IMG/VR virus record: IMGVR_UViG_3300023440_000002
Location: 44,382-108,381 of that record
DNA from: a virus
DNA length: 64,000 bases
Reading direction: 5' to 3' (one strand)
Under the pieces are notes generated by a model that worked only from the letters and a program-made list of their open reading frames with translations, ran no database searches and was not told where the DNA came from. Below are positions 8,214 through 62,247 of the stretch, one piece after another (position 1 is the first letter of the stretch; every line of letters begins with the position of its first letter). A program made the position numbers and the translations under genes.

Positions 8214-8325
8214 CTAGGTCATCCATTATTGGGGTGGCTATTTGATTGCGAACCTGGTCGCTAACCTGCCGACCTTACTTTACATAAACCTTATCGGTTA
8301 TGTCTGTAATAACTTTAGCTTTCAC
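8203..8325 (-). pseudogene. array-2 cassette M29: promoter-bearing head, stop, then tail
   Basis: The GTG start at 8325 gives 16 residues (...KVITDITDKVYVK) to TAA at 8275-8277. The same frame then continues GRQVSDQVRNQIATPIMDDLDES to a normal overlap with M30. M27 has the identical architecture and length (123 nt), so the stop is an inherited feature. The head carries the sigma-28-like motif. Confidence 0.55.
8291..8317 (-). promoter_or_regulatory. promoter-like motif in the M29 head
   Basis: On the - strand TAAAGTTA (8317-8310), 11 bp, then ACCGATAA (8298-8291). The following peptide terminates almost at once, which suits a promoter/leader unit for M30 onward. Confidence 0.5.
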
Positions 8326-14276: not shown

Positions 14277-14303
14277 TTATCGGTTGACTTGCGAAAAACT
14301 TTA
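14277..14303 (-). promoter_or_regulatory. sigma-28-like promoter for the array-2 operon
   Basis: On the - strand TAAAGTTT (14303-14296), 11 bp, ACCGATAA (14284-14277). It is identical to the FliA consensus except one base and lies about 50 bp before the first gene of the operon. Confidence 0.7.
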
Positions 14304-14359
14304 GCCTAATATTAACATAGAAGAAAGTGAGTTGTTTTGCTAATTTAAAGGCCATATAT

Positions 14360-27124: not shown

Positions 27125-27225
27125 ATAATTAAAAATAGGCGTGATTGCCAAGATTAGTACTATTATCGGTTTATTTTCAAATAACTTTAGCGGTTTCTTA
27201 TTATTTCTTCTACACCCTCAAAAGA
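27125..27225. repeat. direct duplication, copy 2 (promoter plus gene-end fragment)
   Basis: A second copy of the roughly 100-bp segment at 25685-25783. On the - strand it carries an orphan gene end (SFEGVEEIIRNR and stop) preceded by AAGGAGG, then the promoter motif, placed upstream of the RNA ligase gene. Confidence 0.8.
27163..27189 (-). promoter_or_regulatory. sigma-28-like promoter for the RNA ligase operon
   Basis: On the - strand TAAAGTTA (27189-27182), 11 bp, ACCGATAA (27170-27163). It is a duplicate of the lipoprotein promoter. Confidence 0.6.
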
Positions 27226-29020: not shown

Positions 29021-29158
29021 AAATAATACCTTTACCAGTAAAAAGGTTCAACTTAATCGCAGAATAGCACTTTAAACCTAATATTGAAAGGGAAATAATC
29101 CTCAAAAGCCTTATTCTGGGTTTTATTATTATATATAACAATAACGGTAACTTATAAT

Positions 29159-29629
29159 ATGGCACAATCACAATTAAGAACAGCCCCAAATATGACGTTA
29201 AAGGTTTCTTATGGCAGATCAGAAGCTGCTGAAAAAACAATAGGTTACGCTCAAAACTTATCTTTTAGTCAAACCTTAGGTCAGAAATCTATCTACACTG
29301 TTGATTCTCCTTTTATTCAAGAGATAGCTCAAGGTGCTGCACCTAGCGCAATACGAGGCACCGTCACATTATTTATGCCTAAAGGGTCAGATCCGGTAAG
29401 GGCCGGACTGGTAACTCCAGCGACAAATATAGAAAAAAAAGACGGAGTTCCTTTGCAAGTAGCTAGCCAGTTTTTAAACTGGCGCTTTTATGATAGATTT
29501 ACTCAAGAATTAGCGTTTGCTCTTAATTTCGTAAAAGTTTCCAGCTGGTCCGTTTCAGTGTCAGCAAAAAGAACTGTTCAGGTATCTTTAAATTTCGAAG
29601 GTATTTTTTATGAACAAGGAACCCAATAA
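29159..29629 (+). CDS. putative tail tube-like structural protein
   Basis: A 156-residue beta-rich protein. Its position directly before the large tail genes, size and pattern (ISEAAEKTIGYAQ-like start, long beta segments) fit a tail tube or related virion protein, but no diagnostic motif is visible. No clear ribosome-binding site. It starts the + strand structural operon. Confidence 0.4.
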   Translation: MAQSQLRTAPNMTLKVSYGRSEAAEKTIGYAQNLSFSQTLGQKSIYTVDSPFIQEIAQGAAPSAIRGTVTLFMPKGSDPVRAGLVTPATNIEKKDGVPLQVASQFLNWRFYDRFTQELAFALNFVKVSSWSVSVSAKRTVQVSLNFEGIFYEQGTQ

Positions 29630-29692
29630 TCACACCAAAAAGTCAATTATTATCCTAATATTTACATTGACTAAACTGTAAGGTACAGATAA

Positions 29693-40813: not shown

Positions 40814-40857
40814 CCTAATATTATTACTAATAACCTTGATGGATTGGGAAATCAAGA

Positions 40858-42771
40858 ATGTCAAATCAGCATCTAAAAGTTCGAAAAGGTCTAAATCTAA
40901 CACCTCAAAGCGTGGAACCTACAAACCCTGTAGAAGGGGCTATGTATTTTGACGTCGTTGTTGGTTTACGATTAAGAAAAAATGGCGTATGGCAAACAGC
41001 CGGAGGTCAAGGTGAAGTAAAGGTCGCTTTAGTTGATAGGTCGGCAACATCACTCCCTTTGATTGCCGGGGGCATCATAGACGGCGAAGTTATCTTAGAT
41101 GGAGATAAAGTACTTTTCTCCAACTTAAGTATTGATAATAATAGAGTTTATAGAGCTTCTATTTCTGGCGGGGCAATATCATGGTCTGCTCAACCTGATT
41201 TTGCCGGCCAGTTCGACCCAGCTCAAGCTGATGTTGTTCGAGTTATCAAAGGTACGGTTTACTGTAAATCTCAGTTTATATTCCAAGGGTCAGTTTGGCT
41301 TTGGGGTATGATCAATATCGATCAGAAAGAGTTAGGATCTGCGGCTGAAAGTTGGTCATCTGCACATATCGACTCACTTATAGGTAAGACGGTAGCAATC
41401 ACCACCGACTCCACAAATGGCGATGCAGTTATTTCCGGAACAGAAAGTTTAATTATTAGTGCTTCCGGAGGTTTAAATGTAAACAGCGGAGTTACTCAAA
41501 CAAAATCTGTTTTTCAATTAACTCAAGTAACTGATATATCACAGCTGTTTTCTGACGCCAACTTAGGTGGAGATATAGGTCAATCTTTTACTCCTACCCA
41601 AAACGGCAAACTTAAAGAAGTCAAACTTGATTTAGGTATTTCCGGAACAGGCAGTGTTGTTGTTGATATTTACGCTGATGGTTCAGGGGTACCTACAGGT
41701 CCGATTTTACAGACTAGTGCACCAATAGCAGCACCCGTATCTCAAGGGTCATTAACTTCGTTTATTTTCGATGGAACCTTTGATTTAGTTGCAGCGACTA
41801 AATATCATTTTGTTATTAATTTGGTATCACTCTCAGGTAGCGTTTCCGTTAAAGGATCTTTAGGTGGAAACGTTTACACTGGGGGTACTTTCATATTCTC
41901 TACTGATGGAGGGGTGACGTGGAATAATAACGCATTCAGGGATTTACTTTTTGAAGTTGATCTACTTGCTAATTCATCAACCGCAAACCCTAACATTAAA
42001 CTAAATGCCGCAACTTCAGGTAGTGTTGGTTTAGGTACCCCTGCGACGGTTACTGATTATAATTTATTATTACCTGACGCTCAGGGAACCTTAGGGCAAT
42101 TCATGAGTAATGATGGCCTAGGAGGGTTGTCTTGGTCAGATCCAGTAATAGGGTTCAGTTCATGGACCGTGATCAACTCAAACATCACAGCTTCAGTGTT
42201 TAATGACCTAGGGGTAGAAACAAACCTTAATACTGTTGATATTACATTACCAGCAACGCCAATTAATGGAGCTAAAATAAGAGTTATAGATCGATTAGGA
42301 ACATTCTCTACCAACTCTTGCTTTATCAAAACAACCGACGGATCAACAATATCAAACCAAGCTCAACCTTTAGAGATTGATGTTTCGTATATTTGGGCTG
42401 AGTTTCTTTATGATTCGGCGGCCAACAACTGGGTTATTTATGGGCCTTTAGCGGATGACTCTCTCAGTCATTGGGGAACCAAAACCAAAACAAGCGCCAA
42501 TAATGGCGACGTAATATTAGAAAGAGATCAGGCTTTAATTGATTCAACTGGCGGAGTTTTCGGGTTAGTTCTACCACCTATAACTAAAGACGGCATGTCT
42601 GTAAGATTCTTAGATGCCGCGTCGAATAATGATATCAATAATGTAACCATCACACCAGACGGAGCAAATACAATAAATGGAGCAGCTACTTTAGTGCTGA
42701 ACATCAAAAATGGACACGTAGAGTTAGTGTCCTCTGGAACAAACTGGATTGTTCTTGGTTTATATTCATAG
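40858..42771 (+). CDS. tail fibre protein with lectin-like insert
   Basis: 637 residues. The N-terminal motif (PVEGAMYFDVVVGLRLRKNG) is shared with the two preceding fibres. Residues about 225-375 (IGQSFTPTQNGKLKEVKLDLG ... KYHFVINL) look like a jelly-roll carbohydrate-binding module. The C-terminal part has two similar beta domains. It probably recognises surface glycans. Confidence 0.6.
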   Translation: MSNQHLKVRKGLNLTPQSVEPTNPVEGAMYFDVVVGLRLRKNGVWQTAGGQGEVKVALVDRSATSLPLIAGGIIDGEVILDGDKVLFSNLSIDNNRVYRASISGGAISWSAQPDFAGQFDPAQADVVRVIKGTVYCKSQFIFQGSVWLWGMINIDQKELGSAAESWSSAHIDSLIGKTVAITTDSTNGDAVISGTESLIISASGGLNVNSGVTQTKSVFQLTQVTDISQLFSDANLGGDIGQSFTPTQNGKLKEVKLDLGISGTGSVVVDIYADGSGVPTGPILQTSAPIAAPVSQGSLTSFIFDGTFDLVAATKYHFVINLVSLSGSVSVKGSLGGNVYTGGTFIFSTDGGVTWNNNAFRDLLFEVDLLANSSTANPNIKLNAATSGSVGLGTPATVTDYNLLLPDAQGTLGQFMSNDGLGGLSWSDPVIGFSSWTVINSNITASVFNDLGVETNLNTVDITLPATPINGAKIRVIDRLGTFSTNSCFIKTTDGSTISNQAQPLEIDVSYIWAEFLYDSAANNWVIYGPLADDSLSHWGTKTKTSANNGDVILERDQALIDSTGGVFGLVLPPITKDGMSVRFLDAASNNDINNVTITPDGANTINGAATLVLNIKNGHVELVSSGTNWIVLGLYS

Positions 42772-43970: not shown

Positions 43971-44732
43971 ATGACTAAATGGAGCGACATATTTGTAAAG
44001 ACGGTACCTACAAGGGCCTATAACCCTCCAGTTGGTACTGTAGTGCAGTCCATACTGTCTCTAGCTCAATTCCAAGCTGAAATGGGAGACTTAAGCTGGG
44101 TATTGATGGATGGGTCTAATATCGCAGGATCTACATTATCTGGACTAACAGGAAATGTATTACTACCTGATGCTACAGGTAGATTCCTAAGAACAGCTGG
44201 GGGTGATGCTGCGGCCCTTGGTACAATTCAACCTCAAGCCACTGCGGTGAATGGACTAACTAACGAGCCCAGTGCTGTAACAGGAACAACTAGTATAAAT
44301 CACACCCATAGCCCTGTTACATCAGATCCAATCTCAGCTAACCACACCCACACAGCAACCCACAACCATCCAGCTCAAGGATCTACAGGGGTTTCAGCGA
44401 ATCACGTACACAATATTAGTGGTGGAAACTGGATGTTTCGCATTTCATTTACCACTTACGTCCAAACTGGAGGTACCGGATGGGATTTCAACACAGCAAC
44501 CCCAACAATGGGCGGTGTTACCTCTGATCACGGACACACAACTGACCTTCCTAATTTAGGAGTAACGACAGGTACAGTTTCATCTAATCATACACATCTC
44601 GTATCTATTCCGGCATTAAGTACGGCGGGAGTGGCTTTGTCTGGCGGATCAGCAGCCGCTCAAAACCAGACAGGTGACACAGAAACAAGACCAACAAACG
44701 TAACAGTTAATACGTTTATTAAAATTAATTAA
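43971..44732 (+). CDS. tail collar protein, second copy
   Basis: 253 residues, the same layout as the gene at 42781, with a longer His-x-His rich middle (NHTHSPVTS, NHTHTATHNHPAQ, ANHVHNISG). It ends ETRPTNVTVNTFIKIN. Confidence 0.75.
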   Translation: MTKWSDIFVKTVPTRAYNPPVGTVVQSILSLAQFQAEMGDLSWVLMDGSNIAGSTLSGLTGNVLLPDATGRFLRTAGGDAAALGTIQPQATAVNGLTNEPSAVTGTTSINHTHSPVTSDPISANHTHTATHNHPAQGSTGVSANHVHNISGGNWMFRISFTTYVQTGGTGWDFNTATPTMGGVTSDHGHTTDLPNLGVTTGTVSSNHTHLVSIPALSTAGVALSGGSAAAQNQTGDTETRPTNVTVNTFIKIN

Positions 44733-49792: not shown

Positions 49793-49821
49793 AGATTAAG
49801 GCAGGAATACTCAAAAGTCAA
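49793..49821 (-). promoter_or_regulatory. sigma-70-type promoter
   Basis: On the - strand TTGACT (49821-49816), 17 bp, TAATCT (49798-49793), about 40 bp before the CYTH gene. It overlaps the end of the sigma-factor gene. Confidence 0.55.
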
Positions 49822-50825
49822 GTATTAATCTTACCATCTGATGGTACCTCAACCCCAAATTTCATTTTAATTAATTTCATCTCTATTATCGGTATATTAT
49901 TAATAGCGAAACCGACTTTAGAAAGCAACTCTTTGGATAAAAAACTGGATTCTGGGGATGGGGCGTCAGATTTAACGAAATCTTGAAGTGTGAGTTCGGT
50001 GTCGCCTGTTTTCTGATCTAAACTTGCAACTCCGGACGACGCAGACATAATACTTCTTAATCGATAAAGTGAGACGTTCTTGAACGACTCTCTAACATAA
50101 TTCAATATATCTTCAGGTTCGGTAAGCTTAGCTTTAATTCGTGCATTGTTAGCTCGATATAGGATTCTTTTTTCTACGGGTGACAGTTTCAGCATAGTAG
50201 AACTCGAGTCTGTTATCATATTTAGCGTCATTCGGCCTATAGCGGTAGACCTAAAAACCGCCTTATAGGGAGGTACGAATTTATCTATAGCTGTCATTAA
50301 TCCTTCATTTGCGTCTTGTATGAAGTCCATATAATCTAAACTGGAATTTGGAGACTTTGACCAAAAAATCTTAGCCCTGTTGATAGCTAAAGGGATATTA
50401 TTTTCACATAAAACTTTTCTTAGTTTAATGATATCATCAAAAATACTCAACAATTCTTCTTTGTTTTTTCCTTCATATTTCGAACAAACCCACTTAGCGA
50501 AACTGTAATTAATTGAAAATTTATATAGAACCCAATAATTATTGTTTTTAAAGCATTTAGATATCTTGCTAGAAAAAACAGCCTGCCTCTCTCTAAAGTA
50601 AACTCGAGCTGATAGGATATTGCCTTTTTCTTCCACAATAAAATTAACAAACTCTTTATATATTAATCTACCTTTAGGGGAAGAAATTAATAGATTTTTA
50701 AATTTATTCTCAAGGTCGAACAGGTCTTCTAATAGTTTTTGCTGACCTCTTCCATCTTCTTTGGAGTTGTCAGCTAGAACGCCGTTCATTGCGGAAATAA
50801 ATTCCTTAAAAACATCTTTATCCAT
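49818..50825 (-). CDS. phage sigma-70-family factor lacking region 4.2
   Basis: 335 residues. Region 2 is clear around residues 160-210 (DYMDFIQDANEGLMTAIDKF, then FRSTAIGRMTLNMI), the core-RNA-polymerase-binding and -10 melting part. Region 3 follows (LSPVEKRILYRANN ... LYRLRSIMS). Near the end LLSKVGFAINNIPIIEMKLIKMKFG resembles region 4.1, but the protein stops 11 residues later, before a 4.2 helix-turn-helix; no other frame continues it. Its likely job is to direct host RNA polymerase to phage promoters. Confidence 0.7.
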   Translation of the reverse strand: MDKDVFKEFISAMNGVLADNSKEDGRGQQKLLEDLFDLENKFKNLLISSPKGRLIYKEFVNFIVEEKGNILSARVYFRERQAVFSSKISKCFKNNNYWVLYKFSINYSFAKWVCSKYEGKNKEELLSIFDDIIKLRKVLCENNIPLAINRAKIFWSKSPNSSLDYMDFIQDANEGLMTAIDKFVPPYKAVFRSTAIGRMTLNMITDSSSTMLKLSPVEKRILYRANNARIKAKLTEPEDILNYVRESFKNVSLYRLRSIMSASSGVASLDQKTGDTELTLQDFVKSDAPSPESSFLSKELLSKVGFAINNIPIIEMKLIKMKFGVEVPSDGKINT

Positions 50826-50829
50826 AAAA

Positions 50830-52293
50830 TTAACCAATTATATCCACAGAATAGTCTGTTAATGTAGAGTAGATTCCAGCTCGGCTATCTGCATGGCGCT
50901 CTAAAATAGGAGATCCTTCTATTTTAAAATCACAAACCCACAAATCCTCATGAGCTACAGGTCTGGTACCTCTCCCGATCCCTTGTTTTACTTTTATTTC
51001 AGATAAACCACCTTGAAGATAAATCACACACCCGGTAGGTTTAATATCTACGCCGGTAGAAATAGCTGTGGTTCCGATAATACAAGGAAGATCCCCGCTA
51101 TTGAACTCATCGACAATATCAGCAATATCACACTTCCAGTACTCTTCAGGTAGCACTTTTTTTGTTTCTTTTGTGACAGTCCCATGGGCGAATTTATAGG
51201 CAATTTTCATATGATTCTTAAGTAGAACGAATTGACTATATTCTTCAATTAAAATAACAACTTGACGCCCAGACAACCTGTAAGCTTTCTCTGCCAGCAT
51301 AGCGGCAAGTCTGATTGCGTTCGGATTTTCGTATAAATTAACCCTGGTTTCTTTTTTTGGATCTTGATGTGATTTCCTCGAAGGGGCACATTTAAACACC
51401 CTGGCTTTTATTTTTTTTAGATATTTACTTTCAGCTAATTCTTTATATTCTTTTCTGTAAACCACCGGACCTGTAACGCCCTCTAACAGCAAAGCTGAGC
51501 CGTCCGTTCTAGTTTGGGTAGCCGAGACAAAGAATCTTAGCTGGGCGGCACTGGCGACCCCATTAAGGCATATCTTCTTGAATGATTCGGAAGGTACCAC
51601 GTGAGATTCGTCAAAAATTACCATTTCAACCTTAGATAGAATATCCCACTCTTTAGTTCCTGGTTTTATCTTCGTAGCTGACTGAGCATTAGCAACAGTA
51701 AACAACTTGTCGATCTTTTTTCTTCCGTCGCCTAGCTGACCCACACTAGCAACACCAAAAGCAGACTCCAGGTCGCAACGTAACTGTTTAGTTATATTAG
51801 TAAAAGGTGTAACTATTAATGTCTTGACTGGGTATTTTTTTAATAAATTAACAATAACTAAAGATTTTCCGGAACCTGTGGGTAATTCTATAGCTCCATG
51901 ACCAATACCAACCAAAGCATCGAAAGCTTCTTTCTGGTACGGTCTCATAGTAAAAGGTTTTTTCTTCCAGGGGATTAAATCATCGTAACAAGTTGAAGGT
52001 AGCTCTCTTTGTACTTTCCATCCAAATTTTTCGGTTATTCTTTTAGCTAAACCAGAATAAGTCCAAGGAACCCCGTCGTCGTCATGATTCAGTAAACATT
52101 TTTTCTGAAGAGCTTTGAGTTCATCAACCTTAGCAAGAAACGAAACGGGGTCGTTTCTTCGAAAATAGACATTCTGCTTTAGTCGAGCTAGTTGGAAACC
52201 GACAGCCTTATCTGTGTAAGTAAGGAAATCCGTTATCTCTTTCGAGTCGGTTGGTAAAATAAGTTTTGTTGTTGTTACGAGTCTCATCTTCAT
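50830..52293 (-). CDS. SF2 DNA helicase (UvsW-like)
   Basis: 487 residues. Motifs in order: RPYQKEAFDAL, IELPTGSGKSLV (Walker A), TLIVTPFTNI, VIFDESHVV (DEAH-type box as DESH), FVSATQTR, then GTTAISTGVDIKPTGCVIYLQGG and KQGIGRGTRP (motif VI). An N-terminal domain of about 120 residues precedes the core, as in UvsW. Likely roles are branch migration and recombination-dependent replication. The frame opens at 52356, but the upstream promoter would start transcription near 52293. Confidence 0.8.
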   Translation of the reverse strand: MKMRLVTTTKLILPTDSKEITDFLTYTDKAVGFQLARLKQNVYFRRNDPVSFLAKVDELKALQKKCLLNHDDDGVPWTYSGLAKRITEKFGWKVQRELPSTCYDDLIPWKKKPFTMRPYQKEAFDALVGIGHGAIELPTGSGKSLVIVNLLKKYPVKTLIVTPFTNITKQLRCDLESAFGVASVGQLGDGRKKIDKLFTVANAQSATKIKPGTKEWDILSKVEMVIFDESHVVPSESFKKICLNGVASAAQLRFFVSATQTRTDGSALLLEGVTGPVVYRKEYKELAESKYLKKIKARVFKCAPSRKSHQDPKKETRVNLYENPNAIRLAAMLAEKAYRLSGRQVVILIEEYSQFVLLKNHMKIAYKFAHGTVTKETKKVLPEEYWKCDIADIVDEFNSGDLPCIIGTTAISTGVDIKPTGCVIYLQGGLSEIKVKQGIGRGTRPVAHEDLWVCDFKIEGSPILERHADSRAGIYSTLTDYSVDIIG

Positions 52294-52297
52294 ATCT

Positions 52298-52348
52298 TTA
52301 TTGTAGCATAAAAGCACATAATTCTTGTTTTTTTCTGAGATGAGGCAT
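52298..52348 (-). CDS. 16-residue mirrored leader peptide (- strand)
   Basis: The frame MPHLRKKQELCAFMLQ matches a + strand frame at 52401-52448 (MPHFRKMKKKVLYML). It is part of an inverted duplication. No strong ribosome-binding site on this side, so translation is uncertain. Confidence 0.35.
   Translation of the reverse strand: MPHLRKKQELCAFMLQ
52300..52308 (-). promoter_or_regulatory. extended -10 promoter for the helicase/sigma operon
   Basis: On the - strand TGCTACAAT. The expected start of transcription falls at or next to the helicase ATG 52293, so the message may be leaderless or start from ATG 52287. Confidence 0.55.
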
Positions 52349-52419
52349 AAGAACAATTTAATACAATGAATATTATATAATATATACTAGGAGATTACTT
52401 ATGCCTCATTTCAGAAAAA
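52329..52419. repeat. inverted repeat between divergent operons
   Basis: The - strand arm ATGCCTCATCTCAGAAAAAA (52348-52329) matches the + strand arm ATGCCTCATTTCAGAAAAA (52401-52419). Similarity continues outward through the -10 boxes on both sides (to about 52287 and 52455). The AT-rich centre contains TATAAT at 52376-52381. Confidence 0.75.
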
Positions 52420-52448
52420 TGAAAAAAAAAGTGCTTTATATGCTATAA
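52401..52448 (+). CDS. 15-residue leader peptide (+ strand)
   Basis: MPHFRKMKKKVLYML, with AGGAGA six nt before the ATG and TATAAT about 20 bp upstream. Its stop codon lies inside the next -10 box. A regulatory leader peptide or a binding-site coincidence. Confidence 0.4.
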   Translation: MPHFRKMKKKVLYML

Positions 52449-52449
52449 T
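52441..52449 (+). promoter_or_regulatory. extended -10 promoter for the HTH/GroEL operon
   Basis: TGCTATAAT, about 55 bp before the gene at 52508. No clear -35, as expected for extended -10 promoters. Confidence 0.6.
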
Positions 52450-52507
52450 AAATATGAGAAATTAATTTAGTTTATTTTTATTGTAACTCCCTCAGAAAAG
52501 GAAAAAG

Positions 52508-53221
52508 ATGAGTATTTTTGAAGAGGTAAAAAAAACAGTCAGTGATATGGATATTATTCATACAGAAGCTTTCGCATTAAAGTTCCAAAAAGCTTTCATT
52601 AAATTTAACACAATACGAACTAAATTCCCTTCAACTACTGTTTTATCAGAAAAAGAAAGAGAGCTTCTTCATATTTTAGAAACAAGATCTGAAGGCAATA
52701 ACGGTGACACTAAAATTAGAGATTCCAACCTTCAAGAGTTGATTGGAAAAAGCCGCCAAACTATCAGTCGCTACCTGAGAAAACTTGAAGATCTTGGTTA
52801 TATTAACAGGTTAAGTATCCCCTTAAAGTTTAAGGGTGATCATCCGACGATGAAAGTGTGGAAAGATCGAACTATTCGATGTCTCCGAATACTTCTAAAG
52901 AATCGTTTTAAATGGGAAAGAGATCTTAAATGGAAAAGAGATTTTAGACCTGATTTTGATTTAGGTGCAGCTTTTGATATCTCTACTGGCCGGAAATTAA
53001 ACATAAAATGGATATTAGATGTTGGAACTGTAGTTACTTTGATGGGCGAAGAGATAAGGGCGGCATGGGATTGGATGCCAGGTTTATGTCAGATGGGATT
53101 GCTTGATCCAGAACAGCAAGCGATGTTTGAAGATTTAAGAGATAAAATAGAAGTTAATCATGAAGATCCAGAGGCGACGGCAGTCTTGGGAATGAAAGTT
53201 AAATATACGAGGGCATGGTAA
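52508..53221 (+). CDS. winged-helix regulator or replication protein
   Basis: 237 residues. A helix-turn-helix with wing is visible around residues 45-100 (LSEKERELLHIL, NLQELIGKSRQTISRYLRKL, GYINRLSIP). The C-terminal half is unrecognised. AAAAGGAAAAAG precedes the ATG. It is the first gene of the + strand early operon and faces the helicase operon, so autoregulation at the inverted repeat is plausible. Confidence 0.6.
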   Translation: MSIFEEVKKTVSDMDIIHTEAFALKFQKAFIKFNTIRTKFPSTTVLSEKERELLHILETRSEGNNGDTKIRDSNLQELIGKSRQTISRYLRKLEDLGYINRLSIPLKFKGDHPTMKVWKDRTIRCLRILLKNRFKWERDLKWKRDFRPDFDLGAAFDISTGRKLNIKWILDVGTVVTLMGEEIRAAWDWMPGLCQMGLLDPEQQAMFEDLRDKIEVNHEDPEATAVLGMKVKYTRAW

Positions 53222-54978
53222 TGGGTTTATTTCAATCAAGCAAGCCAAAATCGGCTGGTAAAATAATGGTTTCAGATAGTAAAGAATTAACATCTTTGGT
53301 TTCCGAAACCCTTAAACATATGGCTGAGATGGCTGGTAAAACTTTAGGTCCAGGAGGCCGTCAAGTTCTAATTGAAAGACCGGAAATGGGGATGAAACCT
53401 ATCATTACAAAAGATGGGGTTACCGTTATAAAGAATTTAGGTTACTCTGACTCCGTAAAGCAGTTAATTTTAGAATCAGCCAGAGATGCAGCTCTTCGAA
53501 CTGCGTCAGAGGCTGGCGACGGAACCACCACAGCAACGATCTTATCTTCAGCTATCTCCAAATACACAGAAGAGATTTCCAAAATACACCCTAAGATGAG
53601 CCCTCAACGAATTGTAAGGGAGCTTCAAGGTTTAATCCCAGAAATTAAAGAGTTTGTGAAATCTTTCAGTGTTGTTTCCTCTGCCGATAATTACGAAAAA
53701 ATCCTGCATAGCGTGGCGTCTCTTTCGGCTAATGGTGATTCCAGTTTAGCTGATTCTGTTTTAGAAGCTTTCGACACTGTAGGTGAAGAGGGCAATTTAA
53801 CCATCGTCGAAGCCACAGGTGCAAGCCGGTACGAAGTGGAAAGAATTTCTGGATATACCGTAGATCAGGGGTATGAGGAATCACTTAAGAGATTTTCTAA
53901 TGGTTTCATTAATGATCGCACTGGAACATTAGTTGGAATGGAAAAGCCGGTAGTTTTGCTGTATGATGGTGTTATTAATGATCTTTCACAGGTTTTCCCT
54001 GCACTTCAAAGCCTTAGTGAGTATTGGGATCAAACTAAGCATCAATTCAAGAATGTTGTTTTGGTCGCCCACGGTTTTTCTGATTTAGTTTTAGGTGATA
54101 TGCATCAAAACTGGGTTCACCCTTCAACCATTAATGTTTTGCCGTTAATTACTCCTCAAACAGCTATTAAGAATTGGCGAACTCAGTTTTTATATGATCT
54201 TCAGTCGTATACTGGATCTCCAGTTTTTAACCCTCTAGATAAGCCTATTTCTGACTTAAATCCGGAATCTATGACGAAAAACAACCTGGTCACTAATGTT
54301 GAATGCTCTAGATTTAGAACTTCGATTATATCTGAAGAGGATGAGATTTTAATTGAAGGTCGAGTTGGTGAGCTGAAAGAGCAACTTAAGAGCCCGGAAA
54401 GCCAATATGAAGAAAATGACCTTAATGTTAGAATCGGCAAGCTGACTAGTGGTATTGCAAGGCTTTATGTTTATGGTCCATCTCAAGGCGAAACGAGAGA
54501 AAAAAGGGACAGGGCAGAGGATGCATGGATGGCAATAAGAGGTGCTGTAAAATATGGAGCTGTTCCTGGTGGAGGGTATGTTCTGGTCAGGCTTGCAGCT
54601 AAAATGCTGGTTAGTGCTGTATCTGTCCCTCTGTCGCCTAAGCAGGTGGCAATGTCTATTTTATCTCAAGCTCTGCTTGAACCAATAGATTTCCTTTACG
54701 GCAATTACGGATACACAGAATCCGAAATAGAAGAGGTTCGAGAGAAACTTTTACTTGATGATAATCAAACATTTGATGTTATGAATCAAGAGTGGGTCGA
54801 TAAAAACTCATTACTAGACTCATTACCTGCGGTAACCGAAGCTATAGAAAACTCAATATCAATAGCTTCTTTGTTGGGAACTTTAGGTGGTATCGTATCT
54901 TTCGATAGGGATACGGAAGCTGATTCTAGGGAGCAAGTTTTAGAGAGAAATTACCAGAAAGCCGTTGGTGGTAACTGA
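53221..54978 (+). CDS. groEL: GroEL-type chaperonin
   Basis: 585 residues. Chaperonin-60 signatures: KTLGPGGRQVLI, PIITKDGVTVIKN, AGDGTTTATIL (ATP site, catalytic Asp) and RAEDAWMAIRGAVKYGAVPGGG (second ATP-site segment). The middle (apical) domain is diverged and the GGM-rich tail is missing. No GroES-like gene in the window. Phage GroELs are known in a few large phages. ATG 53221 follows GAGGG and overlaps the previous stop (TAATG). Confidence 0.9.
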   Translation: MGLFQSSKPKSAGKIMVSDSKELTSLVSETLKHMAEMAGKTLGPGGRQVLIERPEMGMKPIITKDGVTVIKNLGYSDSVKQLILESARDAALRTASEAGDGTTTATILSSAISKYTEEISKIHPKMSPQRIVRELQGLIPEIKEFVKSFSVVSSADNYEKILHSVASLSANGDSSLADSVLEAFDTVGEEGNLTIVEATGASRYEVERISGYTVDQGYEESLKRFSNGFINDRTGTLVGMEKPVVLLYDGVINDLSQVFPALQSLSEYWDQTKHQFKNVVLVAHGFSDLVLGDMHQNWVHPSTINVLPLITPQTAIKNWRTQFLYDLQSYTGSPVFNPLDKPISDLNPESMTKNNLVTNVECSRFRTSIISEEDEILIEGRVGELKEQLKSPESQYEENDLNVRIGKLTSGIARLYVYGPSQGETREKRDRAEDAWMAIRGAVKYGAVPGGGYVLVRLAAKMLVSAVSVPLSPKQVAMSILSQALLEPIDFLYGNYGYTESEIEEVREKLLLDDNQTFDVMNQEWVDKNSLLDSLPAVTEAIENSISIASLLGTLGGIVSFDRDTEADSREQVLERNYQKAVGGN

Positions 54979-55247
54979 TGGGCTGGTTCAGCTATAAGTG
55001 CAATACCTGTGAGAATACATTTCGAAAGTCACTTCCTTTGAGAAAAAAAACTCAAGAGTGTGTTATTTGCCACGAAGAGGCTGAAGTTATTTTGAAGGTA
55101 GGTTCAGTTCAGGTTGTTGAGCGTCTAGATAATGGAGCTATGGCTAGGGCGGTAGAGCGGCTTCATAATATTGAGGAGATTATGGATGAGCGTGATGCTA
55201 AAAGCACAAAAAGAAATATGGAAGGTTTAGAGGGTTTAGATGAATAA
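54978..55247 (+). CDS. small zinc-ribbon protein
   Basis: 89 residues. Two Cys-x2-Cys knuckles in YKCNTCENTF and ECVICHEEAE, like FmdB-type ribbons, then an acidic helical tail. TGATG overlap with the chaperonin gene. Confidence 0.6.
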   Translation: MGWFSYKCNTCENTFRKSLPLRKKTQECVICHEEAEVILKVGSVQVVERLDNGAMARAVERLHNIEEIMDERDAKSTKRNMEGLEGLDE

Positions 55248-55308
55248 ATAGGTTGCTGTGTTCCGTTTCTTTTGTTATGTTTTTTAGGTAATCACTAAGG
55301 GGGTATTT

Positions 55309-57018
55309 ATGAGTGGCAATTTAAGACCAGTTGAATTAAGTTTAGAAGGTTTTAGGTCTTTTGTTGACAAGACAACAATAAAATTCCCCGACATTAAACG
55401 GGGAGCTATCCTGATTAGTGGTTCGTATAAGGATGGGGAGACATCTTCAGGTTCCGGCAAGTCTACCATCTTGATGGCTATGGCTTTCGCTTTAGGTTTC
55501 TGTGACATACCTAACACTGAACTTAAAAGCTGGTACGGGAAAAACAAATTGAATGTCAAGCTTGTTTTGACTGATGACGACAATACCTATGAGATAATTA
55601 GAAATCCGAAACTTAAACTAGTTATCAATGGAGAGAAATTTGGAGGTACGTCTGCGGGAGCTAAAGAGAAATTAGAGGAAATCTTAAAGGCACCTTCAGA
55701 GTTAATTAAGGCGCTAACTTACAGACCTCAAAGAGAGAAAGGTACATTCCTAACAAACACTGACTCTAAAAATAAAGAGTTTTTAACGAAAATCCTATCT
55801 CTGAATTCGATAGAGTCGGCTAGTGATTCTTTTCTTCAAGAGTTAAACTCGATAAATTTCAAGAGATCTTCCCTAGAAAGCTCTATTTCTGTATTAAAAT
55901 CAACACTAAGTAATTCAAACGTTTCTGATGCTCAAATCACTGAAGCTCAAGCGACGGTAAATTCCCTTAAAACTAAACTTGAATCTATGGGATCGGTAGC
56001 TGAGGATGTTGCGGGATATCAAGAAAGTATCGATAGTATTAATGTTGAACTTTCACGTATAGCAAAAGCGAGTAATGAGGTTTTGGTAGCCAAAAACCAA
56101 AATCTGGCGATAAGGGTTAAGGTTGGAGAACTACAATCTGAAATATCAGAATTAAAAAAAGGTGTTTGTGTTACATGTAAGAGGGAGTGGGATCAGTTCC
56201 AATCTTTAGTGTCTATGAAGGCGGAAGATATCTCTAATCTTCTGGATTCCATGAAATCTAATATCGCTTTAATTAATTCGGCAGCTCAGCTAATCAACCC
56301 TCAACATAAAGCTCAAATGGAAGAATCTAGGCAGCTTTATCAGATAAAGATCGGTGAGGTGTCTGCGCCAGTCGGCAGTGCAACACAGTCTTATAACTTA
56401 GCTGTATCTAACCTTGATAATTTGAATAGAATGAAAAAAATGAACAGCTCTTATGTTGAGCAACTTTCATCTCAAGAGATAGAACTAAAAGGTTTGGATA
56501 TTGAAGTTCATTTGCTGGATCATTGTGTTAAAATAATAGGAAGGCAGGGGTTCTTAGGTGGTATTTTTGATGAGGTTTTATCTGAAATAAAAATGAGAAC
56601 TAATGACCTTATGGTTTATATGCCTAATATTAATACATTTTCTTTGGATGTTTCATCGACATCGGTTACTCAAACAGGGAAAGTAAATAAGAAAATAAAT
56701 ACTGTGATGTATAAGGATGGAATGCCAAAATCTTTAAAGTCTATGTCTGGAGGTCAACAAGTAGCCTCAGAGCTTTGCGCCGATCTGGCTGTGTCAGAGA
56801 CTATAAAGTCCAGGTCGGGCTCTAGATTGGGGTGGGTAGGGCTAGATGAGGCTATGGAAGGGTTGGATGTTGAAACTAAGATTGCAGCTCTTGATGCTAT
56901 AAAATCAAAAGTTGACGGATTGCTTATAATTGTAGATCATTCAACAGAAATTAAAGAGTCTTTTGATATGGTCATAGATGTCCAATTTGACGGAAAAAGG
57001 AGCTGGGTTGAACAGTAA
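55309..57018 (+). CDS. SbcC/Rad50-like (T4 gp46-like) ATPase
   Basis: 569 residues. N-terminal FRSFVDKTTI and Walker A GSGKST (near 48), two coiled-coil arms around a zinc-hook CVTCKRE (near 285-292), and a C-terminal ABC signature SMSGGQQVASE with Walker B LGWVGLDEAMEGLD. It would work with an Mre11-like nuclease (perhaps the phosphoesterase at 60052) in DNA-end processing and recombination. AAGGGGGT precedes the ATG. Confidence 0.85.
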   Translation: MSGNLRPVELSLEGFRSFVDKTTIKFPDIKRGAILISGSYKDGETSSGSGKSTILMAMAFALGFCDIPNTELKSWYGKNKLNVKLVLTDDDNTYEIIRNPKLKLVINGEKFGGTSAGAKEKLEEILKAPSELIKALTYRPQREKGTFLTNTDSKNKEFLTKILSLNSIESASDSFLQELNSINFKRSSLESSISVLKSTLSNSNVSDAQITEAQATVNSLKTKLESMGSVAEDVAGYQESIDSINVELSRIAKASNEVLVAKNQNLAIRVKVGELQSEISELKKGVCVTCKREWDQFQSLVSMKAEDISNLLDSMKSNIALINSAAQLINPQHKAQMEESRQLYQIKIGEVSAPVGSATQSYNLAVSNLDNLNRMKKMNSSYVEQLSSQEIELKGLDIEVHLLDHCVKIIGRQGFLGGIFDEVLSEIKMRTNDLMVYMPNINTFSLDVSSTSVTQTGKVNKKINTVMYKDGMPKSLKSMSGGQQVASELCADLAVSETIKSRSGSRLGWVGLDEAMEGLDVETKIAALDAIKSKVDGLLIIVDHSTEIKESFDMVIDVQFDGKRSWVEQ

Positions 57019-57451
57019 AAGTAGACTTTTAGATATGTCAAGACCCTTACCTTCAATGGTAATACCTGATAGGTATTATTTGTCATATTATGACGTTGTT
57101 AGTAATAGTGGGCCTTTATATGTTGTACTGTCGATAAATGAAGGGGAATCTTCTTTGTATTTTTCTAAAAACAAAGAAGGGGAGTTTGTGTCTTATGTTT
57201 TTTATCGGATATCTGACGCAAACAAATACCTTAAAACTGTTAGAACCTTTAAGGGGGAGGATGTGTCAGCTTTAGTGTTATGGGGAGGTACAGCGTCAAT
57301 ATTGGCAAACTCCTATAGCAAGGTACTAAAAAAAGAAAAAAGTGGTGTTAGAGGGCAAAGGAAACTTAAAGCGGTTTCTTCTGTGTTTATTAATGATCGG
57401 TTTGTCGATCTTGAACTTTTTTGGGTTGACGATAACCTAAAAATAAATTAG
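57008..57451 (+). CDS. unknown protein, 147 residues
   Basis: TTG 57008 follows AAAAAGGAG and gives an 11-nt overlap with the SbcC-like gene. The ATG at 56978 lacks a ribosome-binding site. The protein is alpha/beta with a basic segment KKEKSGVRGQRKLK. No family recognised. Confidence 0.55.
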   Translation: MNSKSRLLDMSRPLPSMVIPDRYYLSYYDVVSNSGPLYVVLSINEGESSLYFSKNKEGEFVSYVFYRISDANKYLKTVRTFKGEDVSALVLWGGTASILANSYSKVLKKEKSGVRGQRKLKAVSSVFINDRFVDLELFWVDDNLKIN

Positions 57452-57452
57452 A

Positions 57453-57728
57453 ATGGGTGATGATTTGGAAGATGTTATGAAAAAACAAAGGGAAGGTTAC
57501 GTAGCTCAACTAGAAGAGGCAGGGGGAGAAATCATTAAAATGAAAGAAACTCGAGAGAAAACTATAGCACAGATTGACAATCGAGTGTCTATTTTACAAT
57601 CCAGGTGTGATCAACTGAAAGGTGCAATATTTGCCCTTGACAGTCTGGTTCAAGCCGAAACAGAAACAGAAACAGAAACAGAAACAGAAACAGAAACAGA
57701 AAGTGAGGGAGATGATGCGAAAAAGTAG
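57453..57728 (+). CDS. coiled-coil protein with (Glu-Thr) repeat
   Basis: 91 residues. A helical coil (about 1-65) is followed by seven Glu-Thr pairs from a hexanucleotide repeat, then an acidic end. ATG 57477 with GGAAG upstream is an alternative start. Function unknown. Confidence 0.5.
   Translation: MGDDLEDVMKKQREGYVAQLEEAGGEIIKMKETREKTIAQIDNRVSILQSRCDQLKGAIFALDSLVQAETETETETETETETESEGDDAKK
57657..57698. repeat. hexanucleotide repeat (GAAACA)7
   Basis: Seven perfect copies of GAAACA. In-frame units change only the length of the acidic tail of the protein above and do not alter the frame. Confidence 0.85.
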
Positions 57729-58002
57729 ACAGCCTAAAACCTTAGAAGAAAAAGTGTTTTCTATTGACCCTGATTTTATTACAGAAATCAGGGGAGGGAC
57801 GCTAGATGAGGCAAAAAATAAGTTATTTCGCCTTGATAAGTACGAAACCGAACTTATGGATGCGAGAGATGATGATCAAGACCTTGCTTCGAAAAGAGAA
57901 GAGCTGAAGGTGGCAAATCAAACCTACTCAGAACCTCTAAAGGCTATTAAACTGAAAAGAGCTTTCGCTCTTAAGGTTTTAGCTGAAAAGGGTGACATTT
58001 GA
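57715..58002 (+). CDS. small charged helical protein
   Basis: 95 residues, Lys/Glu-rich. ATG 57715 follows GAGGGA and overlaps the previous gene by 14 nt. The upstream open frame across the GAAACA repeat would read Lys-Gln repeats and is probably not used. No family recognised. Confidence 0.55.
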   Translation: MRKSRQPKTLEEKVFSIDPDFITEIRGGTLDEAKNKLFRLDKYETELMDARDDDQDLASKREELKVANQTYSEPLKAIKLKRAFALKVLAEKGDI

Positions 58003-58602
58003 AGGTTGTGGGTTTGGATATGTCAACCAAAACAGGGTATGCCGTCATTAATGACGGCACCTTGTCCGATTATGGTATGATCCTTAGATCCCCAAGGTCA
58101 CTCGACGAAGAAACTCAGCTTAATGTTGAGGATTACGGATTCTTATCTGACGCAAAGGATATAGCTATAGGTGCTCTAGGTGTAGCTCAGAGAGAAAAAC
58201 CAGACTTTATTTATATAGAACAAACCAATAAAGGCAGGAATAGGGTGTCGCAAAAACAGCTAGAGTTTATCCACTGCATGGTACTTGATGGCTTGTTAGG
58301 TGGCGGAATGGCCGGTAAAGTTAGGTATGTCGATACTTCAGCTTGGAGACGTCACTTGTCTGTGAGATTATCAAAAGATGACTCTAAACATAACAAACTA
58401 GTAAAAAACAGGCTAGCTCGGGGTAAAATAACAACAAAACATTTAGCTGTAAGATGGGCTAACGACAAATTTAACCTGAATTTGATTTTAAAAGACAATG
58501 ACATAGCTGACGCAATAGCTGTCGCAACTTATGGTATTAATTACGAAACAAAAACTAAACCCAACATTACAGAAACTGATATAAATAATTTATTCAAATA
58601 AT
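57999..58602 (+). CDS. RuvC-like Holliday-junction resolvase
   Basis: 200 residues of RNase-H fold. Acidic residues are placed as in RuvC: VVGLDMSTKTGYAV (Asp7), FIYIEQTNKG (Glu near 69), and DNDIADAIAVATYG near the end. It would resolve branched DNA before packaging. TTG start after AAGGGTG, overlapping the previous TGA (TTGA). Confidence 0.7.
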
Positions 58603-58614
58603 CTTAATGTTTGT

Positions 58615-58623
58615 GCTATAATA
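58615..58623 (+). promoter_or_regulatory. extended -10 promoter
   Basis: TGCTATAAT directly before AAGAAGG and the ATG at 58635. The 5' leader would be only a few bases. Confidence 0.55.
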
Positions 58624-58634
58624 AGAAGGTAAGT

Positions 58635-59465
58635 ATGGATTTTGACTGGGATGAAGAATTGATCGAAACTCAACATAAAAAACCGGAAGAAGATCCTCCT
58701 GAAGAGGATGGTTGGGAATATGTTGATGAGTTAATTGATGATGAAACTGATGATTCAACCGTAACTCTTGCGATTAAAAGAATTGAACAAGCTAAACTTT
58801 ACGAGTCATTAATTACTCATGATTTTTTCGCTCCAGGTTCCGCTAGACCGGAAATCCAAAGTAAAGTAACAAAAGAGATTCGTGATTTTATATTAGATAG
58901 ACTTTCCGTTCTCGTCGGTCTAAAAGACGAACCAAGCACTGTTCAAGTTAAGGCGGAAATGCCGTGGAATGAAAGTCAAATCGAAGCGTTAACTTCTATA
59001 GCTAACAGGCTTGTAGATAAAAAAAGCACTACGGTGTTAAATAAACCTACAGTTCAGCAATTTTCAGCTGTAAGTAGCTCTGTACCTGTAGTTAATGTGG
59101 TTAATCAATCTCCAGTTCAGCCTAAACAAGCAGAGGTTGATTATCAACCTGTTCAGAAAAGAACAAAAAGAACAAAAAGAACTAGAAGGCGTAAAGCTGA
59201 AGCAAAAGTCAAACTACCTTCCGGTGTAAAGATCGACGATAACACTGGACGTCCAATGTCAGAAAACGGTATCGTCCTATATGGAGGGCAAGTTACAAAT
59301 AAATCTTCACCTCCAAAAAAAATGCCAACACAAGCTGAAATGAACATGATTAATAATAGGGCTGTTCAGAGAAATCAAGCCGGAACTGGAAGTATAGGTG
59401 ATAAACTTTTAGGTATGGCAATTAATCAAGCCCAGAGTTTAAATAGAAACATACTTGAGGAGTAA
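58635..59465 (+). CDS. acidic/basic linker-rich protein, unknown function
   Basis: 276 residues. Very acidic N-terminus, a helical middle, and a Lys/Arg-rich stretch (KRTKRTKRTRRRKAEAK) near 185. ATG 58635 follows AAGAAGG; the longer frame from 58611 has no site. Possibly nucleic-acid binding. Confidence 0.55.
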   Translation: MDFDWDEELIETQHKKPEEDPPEEDGWEYVDELIDDETDDSTVTLAIKRIEQAKLYESLITHDFFAPGSARPEIQSKVTKEIRDFILDRLSVLVGLKDEPSTVQVKAEMPWNESQIEALTSIANRLVDKKSTTVLNKPTVQQFSAVSSSVPVVNVVNQSPVQPKQAEVDYQPVQKRTKRTKRTRRRKAEAKVKLPSGVKIDDNTGRPMSENGIVLYGGQVTNKSSPPKKMPTQAEMNMINNRAVQRNQAGTGSIGDKLLGMAINQAQSLNRNILEE

Positions 59466-59469
59466 AAAT

Positions 59470-60048
59470 ATGAGTACTTTAGAGAGAATTCAAAAACTGG
59501 AAGAGTCTATGGGACAAGTCGTAGCTCGTGTTACTCAACCAGATCAAATGCTGCAAATGGCCATGAATAAAATTGTGGGTATTGAGCAATCTGTCGCTTC
59601 GTTAGGTAAAACATTAACGGCCGTTACTGAAGAGTTAGCGGAAACAGAAACCTTAAATAGTATGAACGTAATGATTAGACTTCGAAGATCTGAAGATGAG
59701 TCTTCAAGATCTAATGTTGAATCTCTATTAAGCCAAGACATAATAGAAGTTTCTGATGTTGTGTCTGATGACTCTTTAGTGGCTCTTGAGCAGAAGATCA
59801 TTAATATGGATTCGGGAGAATCGACTGTGTTAGCTGAATATAACCTAATTGGGATGGCGTCACCTGTAACTAGTGTTGTATGGAAGGACTCTCTGCTTGG
59901 TAAGTCGGTTGGGGACACAGTAAAAGGTACTAATGAGGGTGCCGAAGATGAACTTTTAACTGTTATTGCTATTTACTCAGTAAAAGAAAAAGAAGTGATA
60001 GGTGACAGTACGAAACAGGAAAATCAACAATCAGTATCGGAAGTTTAA
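59470..60048 (+). CDS. unknown protein with coiled-coil N-terminus
   Basis: 192 residues: coiled coil (about 1-60) then an acidic beta-rich domain (VLAEYNLIGMASPVTSVVW). GAGGAG lies eight nt before the ATG. No family recognised. Confidence 0.6.
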   Translation: MSTLERIQKLEESMGQVVARVTQPDQMLQMAMNKIVGIEQSVASLGKTLTAVTEELAETETLNSMNVMIRLRRSEDESSRSNVESLLSQDIIEVSDVVSDDSLVALEQKIINMDSGESTVLAEYNLIGMASPVTSVVWKDSLLGKSVGDTVKGTNEGAEDELLTVIAIYSVKEKEVIGDSTKQENQQSVSEV

Positions 60049-60051
60049 ACT

Positions 60052-61326
60052 ATGGCAAAGAAAAAAAACAAACTGGTGGACCAGATAGCTGCCGACATGA
60101 AAAGGGTTGCTAAAAAACTTGGGATTAATCCGGCACTTCTAACTAAAGCTAAGTATTTTAGTGGTGAGCCAAAAATAAGCGAATGGGATCTTCGTAAATC
60201 TGGTGGTTTTATTGGGATTCGGAATGCTTATTTTGAGTATGATGATGACAGTAGAGACGAGGCAGCATGGACAGAAAACGCTGATCTAAGAAAAGCGTTC
60301 AGGAAGCTTCGCCGTGATTCTGGTTCTATGGATCTTATGTTTAATAGGATCTCCGAAGCTATATCTAAAATACCAAAGATTAAGGTTAAACCATACAAAG
60401 CAACTAAAAGCAAAAAAAAGGTGAAAACTAAAGATCTTAGAACTTTAAATTTAGTATTATCTGATCTTCACTTTGGTTCCGACTTAACAGAAGATGAGCA
60501 TGGTCATGATTTTGGTAGGGTTGAGGAAGCTAGAGCTTTAGCTGTTGTTGTGAAGAATGTATGTAATTACAAACTAGAATACAGAGATCAAACGGAACTT
60601 GTTGTTAATATTTTAGGTGATGTTATAGAAAACGAACTTCACGGTTCCGGTTCGGCAGACTATCTTCACTTACAGTGTTGTAGAGCTATGTGGCTTTTAT
60701 CTCAAGCTTTAGCTAAGTTTTCTGAGAATTTCTACAAAGTTAGGGTTAATTTTGCTGTAGGAAATCACGGAAGAGACACCTCTATTCACCCTAAAAGAGC
60801 AACTGACGTTAAATTTAACGCCCTCGAAACAACTATTTATTACGGAGTTAAGTTGGCGTGCTCAGGTATGAGCAATATCGAGTTTAATCAACCTAAAACC
60901 CCATGGATAACATATAAAGCTCAAGGTCACAATATGTATGCTACTCATGGAGATACAAACTTAAATCCGGGCAATCCCGGAAATAAACTTGATGTTAGGG
61001 GGATGGAAGGGCAAATAAATAAAATAAATGCAGCTTTAGATGACAGTGAAGAGTATGAAGTGTTTATGGCAGGGCACGTCCATCACGCTATGGCTACACC
61101 CATGCCTAATGGTACATTTCTTATTACTAACGGGGCATTAGTTCCACCTAACAGTTTTGCACAAACCTTAAATATAATGGAATCACAACAAATACAGGTT
61201 TTATTTGAAACAACTAAAGAATTTGCTGTTGGTGATTTTAGATTTATCAATATAACATCATCGGACTATAGCAGTAACAAATCACTTGATTTAATCATCC
61301 AGCCATTTAAAAGTCTGGACATCTAA
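60052..61326 (+). CDS. calcineurin-like metallophosphoesterase (possible Mre11-type)
   Basis: 424 residues. Metallophosphoesterase motifs: LVLSDLHFGSD (near 135), ILGDVIEN, VGNHGRD, ATHGD and AGHVHHA. A basic N-terminal region of 130 residues precedes it. GNHGR and the final GHVHH are compatible with nucleases of the Mre11/SbcD group, and an SbcC-like partner lies 3 kb upstream, but the order is not the usual adjacent pair. Substrate unproven. Confidence 0.7.
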   Translation: MAKKKNKLVDQIAADMKRVAKKLGINPALLTKAKYFSGEPKISEWDLRKSGGFIGIRNAYFEYDDDSRDEAAWTENADLRKAFRKLRRDSGSMDLMFNRISEAISKIPKIKVKPYKATKSKKKVKTKDLRTLNLVLSDLHFGSDLTEDEHGHDFGRVEEARALAVVVKNVCNYKLEYRDQTELVVNILGDVIENELHGSGSADYLHLQCCRAMWLLSQALAKFSENFYKVRVNFAVGNHGRDTSIHPKRATDVKFNALETTIYYGVKLACSGMSNIEFNQPKTPWITYKAQGHNMYATHGDTNLNPGNPGNKLDVRGMEGQINKINAALDDSEEYEVFMAGHVHHAMATPMPNGTFLITNGALVPPNSFAQTLNIMESQQIQVLFETTKEFAVGDFRFINITSSDYSSNKSLDLIIQPFKSLDI

Positions 61327-61338
61327 TAAAGACCTCTT

Positions 61339-61689
61339 ATGATAAAAAAACCTAAAATTGTTCGTTCGGCAGCTGAAGAGAAAAAACACTATAAGGGAGT
61401 AATAAGAGATAAAAACAAAAGAATTAAAATATTAGAAAGAGAGGTTTCCAGGTTAAGTAAATACTTAGTCAGGGAGGGTTTTGAATATAAATGGGACGAA
61501 GAGGAGAATCAAGTTGCATCACCAAACCAAGGCCCTGACTGGGAATGCGTTAAGTGTGAGCATAATGAATGTTACGAGTTCGAACTACCTCAAGGCAGTT
61601 CAATTCGAAAATACTTCACTTGTAAGAATTGTGGTAACAGAACTAGGGCTGTGATTGATGGTAAAGTTATGGACCCCTCAGGGGAATAA
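61339..61689 (+). CDS. coiled-coil zinc-ribbon protein
   Basis: 116 residues. A coiled coil (about 20-50) is followed by CVKCEHNECYEF and CKNCGNR, a zinc ribbon. Resembles phage transcription-linked ribbons in layout only. Confidence 0.6.
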   Translation: MIKKPKIVRSAAEEKKHYKGVIRDKNKRIKILEREVSRLSKYLVREGFEYKWDEEENQVASPNQGPDWECVKCEHNECYEFELPQGSSIRKYFTCKNCGNRTRAVIDGKVMDPSGE

Positions 61690-62041
61690 AAAGCAAACAG
61701 AGATTGATATTAAGCTTACTAGTATAGTTAATTACACTAGTAAATTAAAAATAGATCTTACAGTTTTAAGGCGTCAACTTATAGGTATTGAGGAAGACAC
61801 ATACGAACTGGAATCTTGCTTAGATAAACTTAAAAATGAGGCCTTGGTGGTGTCGGCTAGTCAGTTTGGTTTAATTAGAGGTAAGTTAAACGAATCAATC
61901 AAACAAAGAGACAAAATACTACTTTTTATAAAAAATACTAAAGCTACGGTGGCTGATCTTTCTAGGCAATCTGAAGAGTTGATAAAGCTTCGAAGTTTAT
62001 CTGATACAAAAATTATTCATATTGATTTTGGAAAAAAATGA
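61658..62041 (+). CDS. coiled-coil protein, unknown function
   Basis: 127 residues, helical. ATG 61658 follows AGGG nine nt upstream and overlaps the previous gene by 32 nt. No family recognised. Confidence 0.5.
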   Translation: MVKLWTPQGNKKQTEIDIKLTSIVNYTSKLKIDLTVLRRQLIGIEEDTYELESCLDKLKNEALVVSASQFGLIRGKLNESIKQRDKILLFIKNTKATVADLSRQSEELIKLRSLSDTKIIHIDFGKK

Positions 62042-62247
62042 AAGAAAAAAAGAGAGACTTACGGCTAGAGACAGATAGGGATTTTATTGTATCCGAAAGG
62101 TATAATAATAATCTATCCGAACTGATATCTAACTACCCTGACGGAGTGCCTGATAAGGTAATTTGTCGAACCTTACAAATAACCCAAAAAGAGCTGGAAA
62201 CCTATTACGATTGTGCTATAATTAATTTGAAAAAAGTTATGGAGTAG
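62038..62247 (+). CDS. small HTH protein resembling sigma region 4
   Basis: 69 residues. The last 40 (VPDKVICRTLQITQKELE, then AIINLKKVM) have the spacing of the sigma-70 region 4.2 helix-turn-helix and its closing ALxKLRK helix. Since the phage sigma factor lacks this part, this could be the missing half, as T4 gp33 complements gp55. Untested. It starts inside the previous stop (ATGA). Confidence 0.5.
   Translation: MKEKKRDLRLETDRDFIVSERYNNNLSELISNYPDGVPDKVICRTLQITQKELETYYDCAIINLKKVME
62214..62222 (+). promoter_or_regulatory. extended -10 promoter for the polymerase gene
   Basis: TGCTATAAT within the end of the HTH gene, about 28 bp before the polymerase ATG. Confidence 0.5.

Follow-up and report, generated by a model that had tools for sequence, protein, structure and literature searches.

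A 64,000-nucleotide (nt) stretch of viral DNA from IMG/VR virus record IMGVR_UViG_3300023440_000002 (positions 44,382 to 108,381 of that record; referred to as the window and numbered from its first letter) carries a gene for a 335-amino-acid (aa) sigma-70-type protein that ends before region 4.2 and, elsewhere, a gene for a 69-aa protein (the companion) that resembles a sigma region 4. The question raised by this locus is whether the two proteins form one sigma factor and, if so, which promoters it would read. Split sigma factors have, to our knowledge, seldom been described, and searches of open-access papers returned no description of this pair. Comparison of the 108-kb IMG/VR record holding both genes with its relatives, including Myxococcus phage Mx1 (OR576727.2), makes it likely that their products form a two-part sigma factor that serves late transcription by the host's RNA polymerase core. 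The idea of a split phage sigma factor had been put forward in an earlier note on this DNA, and it was well supported by sequence comparison, in that all relatives share one truncation point and every large genome has a separate sigma-4-type gene.

The larger protein is read from an ATG start; an alternative TTG start upstream, at 50837, would give 339 aa. The window sigma matched PHROG 351 'RNA polymerase sigma factor' (4e-12) and RpoD/SigA chains (best 9e-8), and weakly matched the Pfam families Sigma70_r2 (E = 3e-3) and Sigma70_r3 (E = 9e-4), both under the curated cut-offs. Its AlphaFold model, which was moderate (mean predicted local distance difference test score, pLDDT, 66.5), found sigma-A in a comparison with known structures (probability 1.00). 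Judged from these matches and the model, the protein is a true sigma-70 relative. The alignment with RpoD continues past region 3 and reaches '..MKFGVEV', in the first helix of region 4, after which the protein ends; the earlier description of a sigma factor with regions 2 and 3 that stops before 4.2 was thus borne out. Region 4 (4.1 and 4.2 together) was not found on the sigma chain in the window protein or in its complete relatives.

Relatives were collected in two overlapping profile scans of viral contigs, which returned 98 sigma relatives and then, with distant members as query, 129; 80 were kept from each. The complete relatives numbered 102 (82 from the first round and 20 new from the second, a few being identical copies), and all of them ended just after 'LxxLExKLLRLKGV'. 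The sigma of Mx1 (WNM70309.1), a direct relative with 32% identity, ends at the same point as the window sigma. Because the relatives share this end point, the truncation of the window sigma is not a product of chance. No region 4.2 was found in the chain of any of the 102 complete relatives or of Mx1, and a search of about 105 relatives for an ancestral fusion carrying region 4.2 in frame found none. A frameshift or read-through into a region 4.2 past the sigma stop was rejected, the companion profile having a single match in the whole record, at 62038. A sequencing error or a pseudogene might account for the truncation, as the single-protein Pfam scores lie under curated cut-offs; however, the end point is strictly conserved, among about 105 relatives the sigma frame is interrupted only once, in a copy on L256 (JAGWUP010000007.1), a contig of an Elusimicrobia metagenome-assembled genome (MAG), and we give this explanation practically no credence. 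The same MAG contains a companion match, and the two matches are a hint at host range, or else phage DNA was binned with the MAG. The last sigma helix is conserved, with an invariant L and an invariant K across 20 distant members, and this residual 4.1-type helix is therefore probably still in use.

The companion was also compared with known families. The window companion alone had no Pfam match, and its open reading frame (ORF) starts with an ATGA overlap with the preceding gene and stops 2 nt before the start of a polymerase gene. Aligned family members share the pattern 'D(F/Y)(I/V)...NSL...PDGV...IA..L..(T/S)E.EVE..Y..A..KLR'. The top Pfam family for companions was Sigma70_r4, matched by 5 of 31 members (best E = 3e-5); its curated cut-off was passed by one companion, that of G031, with the others, the window's own protein included, falling under it. 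The AlphaFold model of the companion had a pLDDT of 90.7, and the viral structure nearest to it was that of a phage protein labelled 'RNA polymerase sigma-70 region 4' (probability 1.00, template-modelling score 0.65, root-mean-square deviation 1.6, E value only 0.099). A Foldseek search of the PDB with the same model was uninformative. Taken at the level of sequence and model, the ORF of 69 aa is a genuine gene, whose product is a small helix-turn-helix (HTH) protein of the sigma-region-4 type, and the likening of this protein to region 4.2 in the earlier note held up on the Pfam family, the AlphaFold model and the closest viral structure.

In sigma-70, the equivalent of the companion's recognition helix bears arginines that read the −35 element. 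The first 11 residues of this helix were net acidic in all 31 companions, with a mean charge of −2.9, and none of the 31 had a basic, −35-reading recognition helix. From this we infer that the companion reads no −35 element. It has probably lost −35 reading, and its acidic recognition helix fits promoters without a −35 element.

In profile searches, a two-row profile found the companion in the larger sigma-bearing records, and a six-row profile found it in 34 of 41 further records; direct scans of viral contigs with the companion as query were unproductive, the protein being too short and too divergent. It was present in all family genomes or contigs larger than 100 kb (34/34), always as a separate ORF. 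The seven mid-size records of the 41 without a companion also had no polymerase gene and are therefore fragments. In Mx1 the companion is encoded at 157458-157688 (minus strand), with no gene of its own annotated in the record. In the window, Mx1 and several relatives the companion directly precedes the gene for the alpha subunit of DNA polymerase III, an arrangement that would suit a DNA-replication accessory protein tied to that gene. Several kb separate the two genes in G021, G029, G036 and G044, however, and the companion fold is of the sigma-4 type, which makes a replication role very improbable.

A candidate promoter class for the pair was found before late genes. The family motif AAnCCTAAT(C/A)TT is directional, has no −35 element and stands before orthologous late structural genes, usually 20-70 nt ahead of a start codon with a ribosome-binding site; this work used simple ORF calls rather than curated annotation. 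The box reads CCTAATATT in the window genome, CCTAATCTT in G011 and G013, and CTTAATCTT in G009. In four related phages, CCTAAT(A/C)TT or CTTAATCTT was strand-biased, with plus/minus counts of 10/0, 0/11, 3/20 and 10/1, and 44 sites pooled from the four phages had no −35 element beside the CCTAAT(A/C)TT box and no significant column upstream of −3. In contig G013, the box was the most over-represented 9-mer (23 copies versus 2.2 expected). The motif precedes genes for baseplate-wedge proteins (G000, G011, G013), tail sheath (G009, G011, G013) and a relative of head maturation proteases (G009, G013, G021), as well as an Mx1 gene and its G013 orthologue (36% identity). One CCTAATCTT-like box in Mx1 stands ahead of OR576727.2 74303. 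Because the motif and the gene pair occur together, and because a −10-only promoter fits a pair that does not read a −35 element, the motif can tentatively be assigned to the split sigma.

The earlier note had instead let the split sigma account for the promoter class of the site at 14277, which is FliA-like, TAAAGTTT-N11-RCCGATAA; on this reading the companion would touch the TAAAGTTT box. This class, recovered by an unsupervised search of upstream regions, is real in the window genome: its core had 11 matches in the window versus 0.74 expected, and the strict form had 12 matches in 108 kb versus 0 expected. The sites span window 806-28403 (for example 8292-8317, 14278-14303 and 27164-27189, minus strand), with others at L124 and L125, and the weak PDB matches of the companion include region 4 of WhiG and of FliA. 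The class was nevertheless lacking in six relatives that have both genes (G008, G009, G011, G013, G021 and Mx1), and the sites lie ahead of numerous small genes and of nucleic-acid genes, with genes for an RNA ligase and a phosphatase among those that they precede and no structural genes behind them. The companion's recognition helix is acidic at the −35-contact position, and the promoters match the sigma-28 consensus exactly; a host factor would be enough to read them. The window genome has sigma-28-type promoter sequences, but these do not track the split sigma across relatives. We consider it improbable that the split sigma reads them; they were rejected as its targets, the class being missing in six relatives that carry the pair, and are probably read by host sigma-28, the simpler reader.

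In the mechanism that we infer for the two-part sigma factor, the two proteins would work jointly and late. The 335-aa protein would supply sigma-2 and sigma-3, read the −10 box AAnCCTAAT(C/A)TT and open late promoters, and the 69-aa protein would supply a stand-alone sigma-4-type domain that binds the beta flap in place of sigma-4, perhaps packing against the residual 4.1 helix at the sigma end. As a protein without −35 reading, the companion would serve as a coactivator or as an assembly subunit, much as gp33 does in T4.

The earlier note had named two precedents, of which T4 gp55/gp33 is the closer. In the T4 late system, promoters have a simple −10 box and no −35 element, gp33 occupies the beta flap and recognises no sequence, and gp55 and gp33 together have been termed 'a split sigma' (PMC2988020). 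The phage pair shares with it a small or truncated sigma lacking the −35-reading domain, a separate sigma-4-like protein and −10-only late promoters (PMC2988020), the promoters described here being predicted. The systems differ in that regions 2 and 3 are recognisable in the sigma of the phage pair and the companion is still sigma-4-like, whereas gp33 is not; the late box in the window family is CCTAAT(A/C)TT, in contrast to the TATA box of T4. By hhalign, no homology was found to gp55 (probability 0.6%) or to gp33 (probability 0.9%, for a gp33 without its first residues). The best explanation of these likenesses is that the pair is a functional analogue of gp55/gp33 without detectable homology. 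The second precedent, SigO/RsoA of Bacillus subtilis, also spreads one sigma function over two proteins but is divided differently, with sigma-4 on SigO and sigma-2 on RsoA (PMC8103513); it is cellular, and in the phage pair the larger protein carries regions 2-3 and the 4-type domain alone is separate. The Mx1 genome paper makes no mention of a sigma factor or of a split (PMC10720576).

Several observations weigh against a two-part factor. The two genes sit in different operons, about 10-15 kb apart, a distance that was recorded in ten environmental contigs (for G014, on condition that this contig is circular). Both belong to the core gene set of the group, so that their co-occurrence is weak evidence and no proof of partnership. 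The sigma model is unreliable over its C-terminal 70 residues. The companion is also matched by LuxR/NarL HTH domains, as expected from the related fold, and sequence cannot fully separate them from sigma-4; judged by sequence alone, the companion may have a closer tie to LuxR/NarL-type HTH proteins. Only in the nearer relatives of the window does the motif stand out clearly, being weak or rare in G008 and most other members, with no clear excess in the stretches examined. Finally, no DnaN-type clamp that would complete a T4-like scheme was found in 11 genomes, a search that did not extend to T4-type clamps or clamp contacts.

Some of these points would suit a sigma that acts alone, as a single-subunit −10-only factor, with the companion an unrelated small HTH regulator whose core gene lies near the DNA polymerase gene by chance. 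Besides the separate operons and the LuxR-type scores, which come near the companion's sigma-4 scores, basal transcription in T4 can be driven by gp55 in the absence of gp33 (PMC2988020). This alternative is unlikely but deserves weight; in each genome examined the extra piece complements the missing one, the acidic recognition helix speaks against an ordinary DNA-binding regulator, and Sigma70_r4 is the best curated match of the companion.

An interpretation that reaches further, and that we hold as tenable though somewhat less than probable, is that the pair represents a second, independently evolved T4-like system of late transcription. A widespread phage lineage would have split a conventional sigma behind helix 4.1 and retained region 4 on a protein of its own, which changed from a −35 reader to a coactivator that binds the core and is blind to DNA, along with a change of late promoters to the −10-only form. 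The gp33 protein of T4 is unlike sigma in sequence, and its origin is obscure for that reason. If true, the interpretation would show a route by which a gp33-like protein arises from a sigma factor, and an intermediate state would be visible here, namely a separate sigma-4-type domain, acidic at the DNA-contact position of 4.2, beside a sigma without precisely that part. Since the pair is conserved throughout a large group of phages, of which Mx1 is a cultured representative, late transcription, the motif and the need for the companion are directly testable. A candidate late-promoter consensus is also gained for genomes that are mostly unannotated. Coordinates of the features are collected in the table.

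Table. Features of the predicted two-part sigma factor and of candidate promoters in the window (window coordinates)
Feature	Position	Strand	Basis or remark
Truncated sigma factor, 335 aa (regions 2 and 3 and first helix of region 4; without 4.2)	49818..50825	−	PHROG 351, RpoD, sigma-A fold, common end point
Sigma region 2 (approximate), residues 134-207	50205..50426	−	Pfam Sigma70_r2 and alignments
Residual 4.1-type C-terminal helix of sigma, residues 298-328	49842..49934	−	RpoD alignment; invariant L and K
Companion, stand-alone sigma-4-type HTH protein, 69 aa	62038..62247	+	31-member alignment, Sigma70_r4, AlphaFold, 34/34 large contigs or genomes
First 11 residues of companion recognition helix, TQKELETYYDC, net acidic	62188..62220	+	31/31 members acidic
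−10 box CCTAATATT of candidate late promoter; gene at 29159 follows after 73 nt	29077..29085	+	
−10 box CCTAATATT of candidate late promoter; 1717-aa gene at 29693 follows after 30 nt	29654..29662	+	CCTAATCTT at corresponding place in G011 and G013 orthologues
−10 box CCTAATATT of candidate late promoter; 637-aa tail-type gene at 40858 follows after 35 nt	40814..40822	+	
Rightward-facing CCTAATATT box, back to back with FliA-like site 14278-14303	14305..14313	+	
FliA-like site called '14277' in the earlier note; judged not a split-sigma target	14278..14303	−	One of 12 strict sites

Other repeats and motifs were noted in these genomes. In the G000 record, a repeat containing GCGAACCTG occurs 46 times over both strands (0.7 expected), mainly at small genes near window 0-12 kb, and the small ORFs behind FliA-like promoters in that region encode repetitive 'QVxWQIxxQI' sequences. 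A third upstream motif in G000, CCTTTATTGGG, has TTCCA at a fixed distance before it (log-likelihood ratio 84 versus at most 62 in shuffles). Contig G008 (L142-L149) contains TAGTGGTAG-type repeats, with 153 copies over both strands versus 1.6 expected. Between the sigma and companion genes, window 52508-53221 encodes a winged-HTH protein that weakly matches DnaD-like helicase loaders as well as proteins of replication initiation, and the ORF at window 53215-54978 reads, from its sequence, like a phage-encoded GroEL-type chaperonin.

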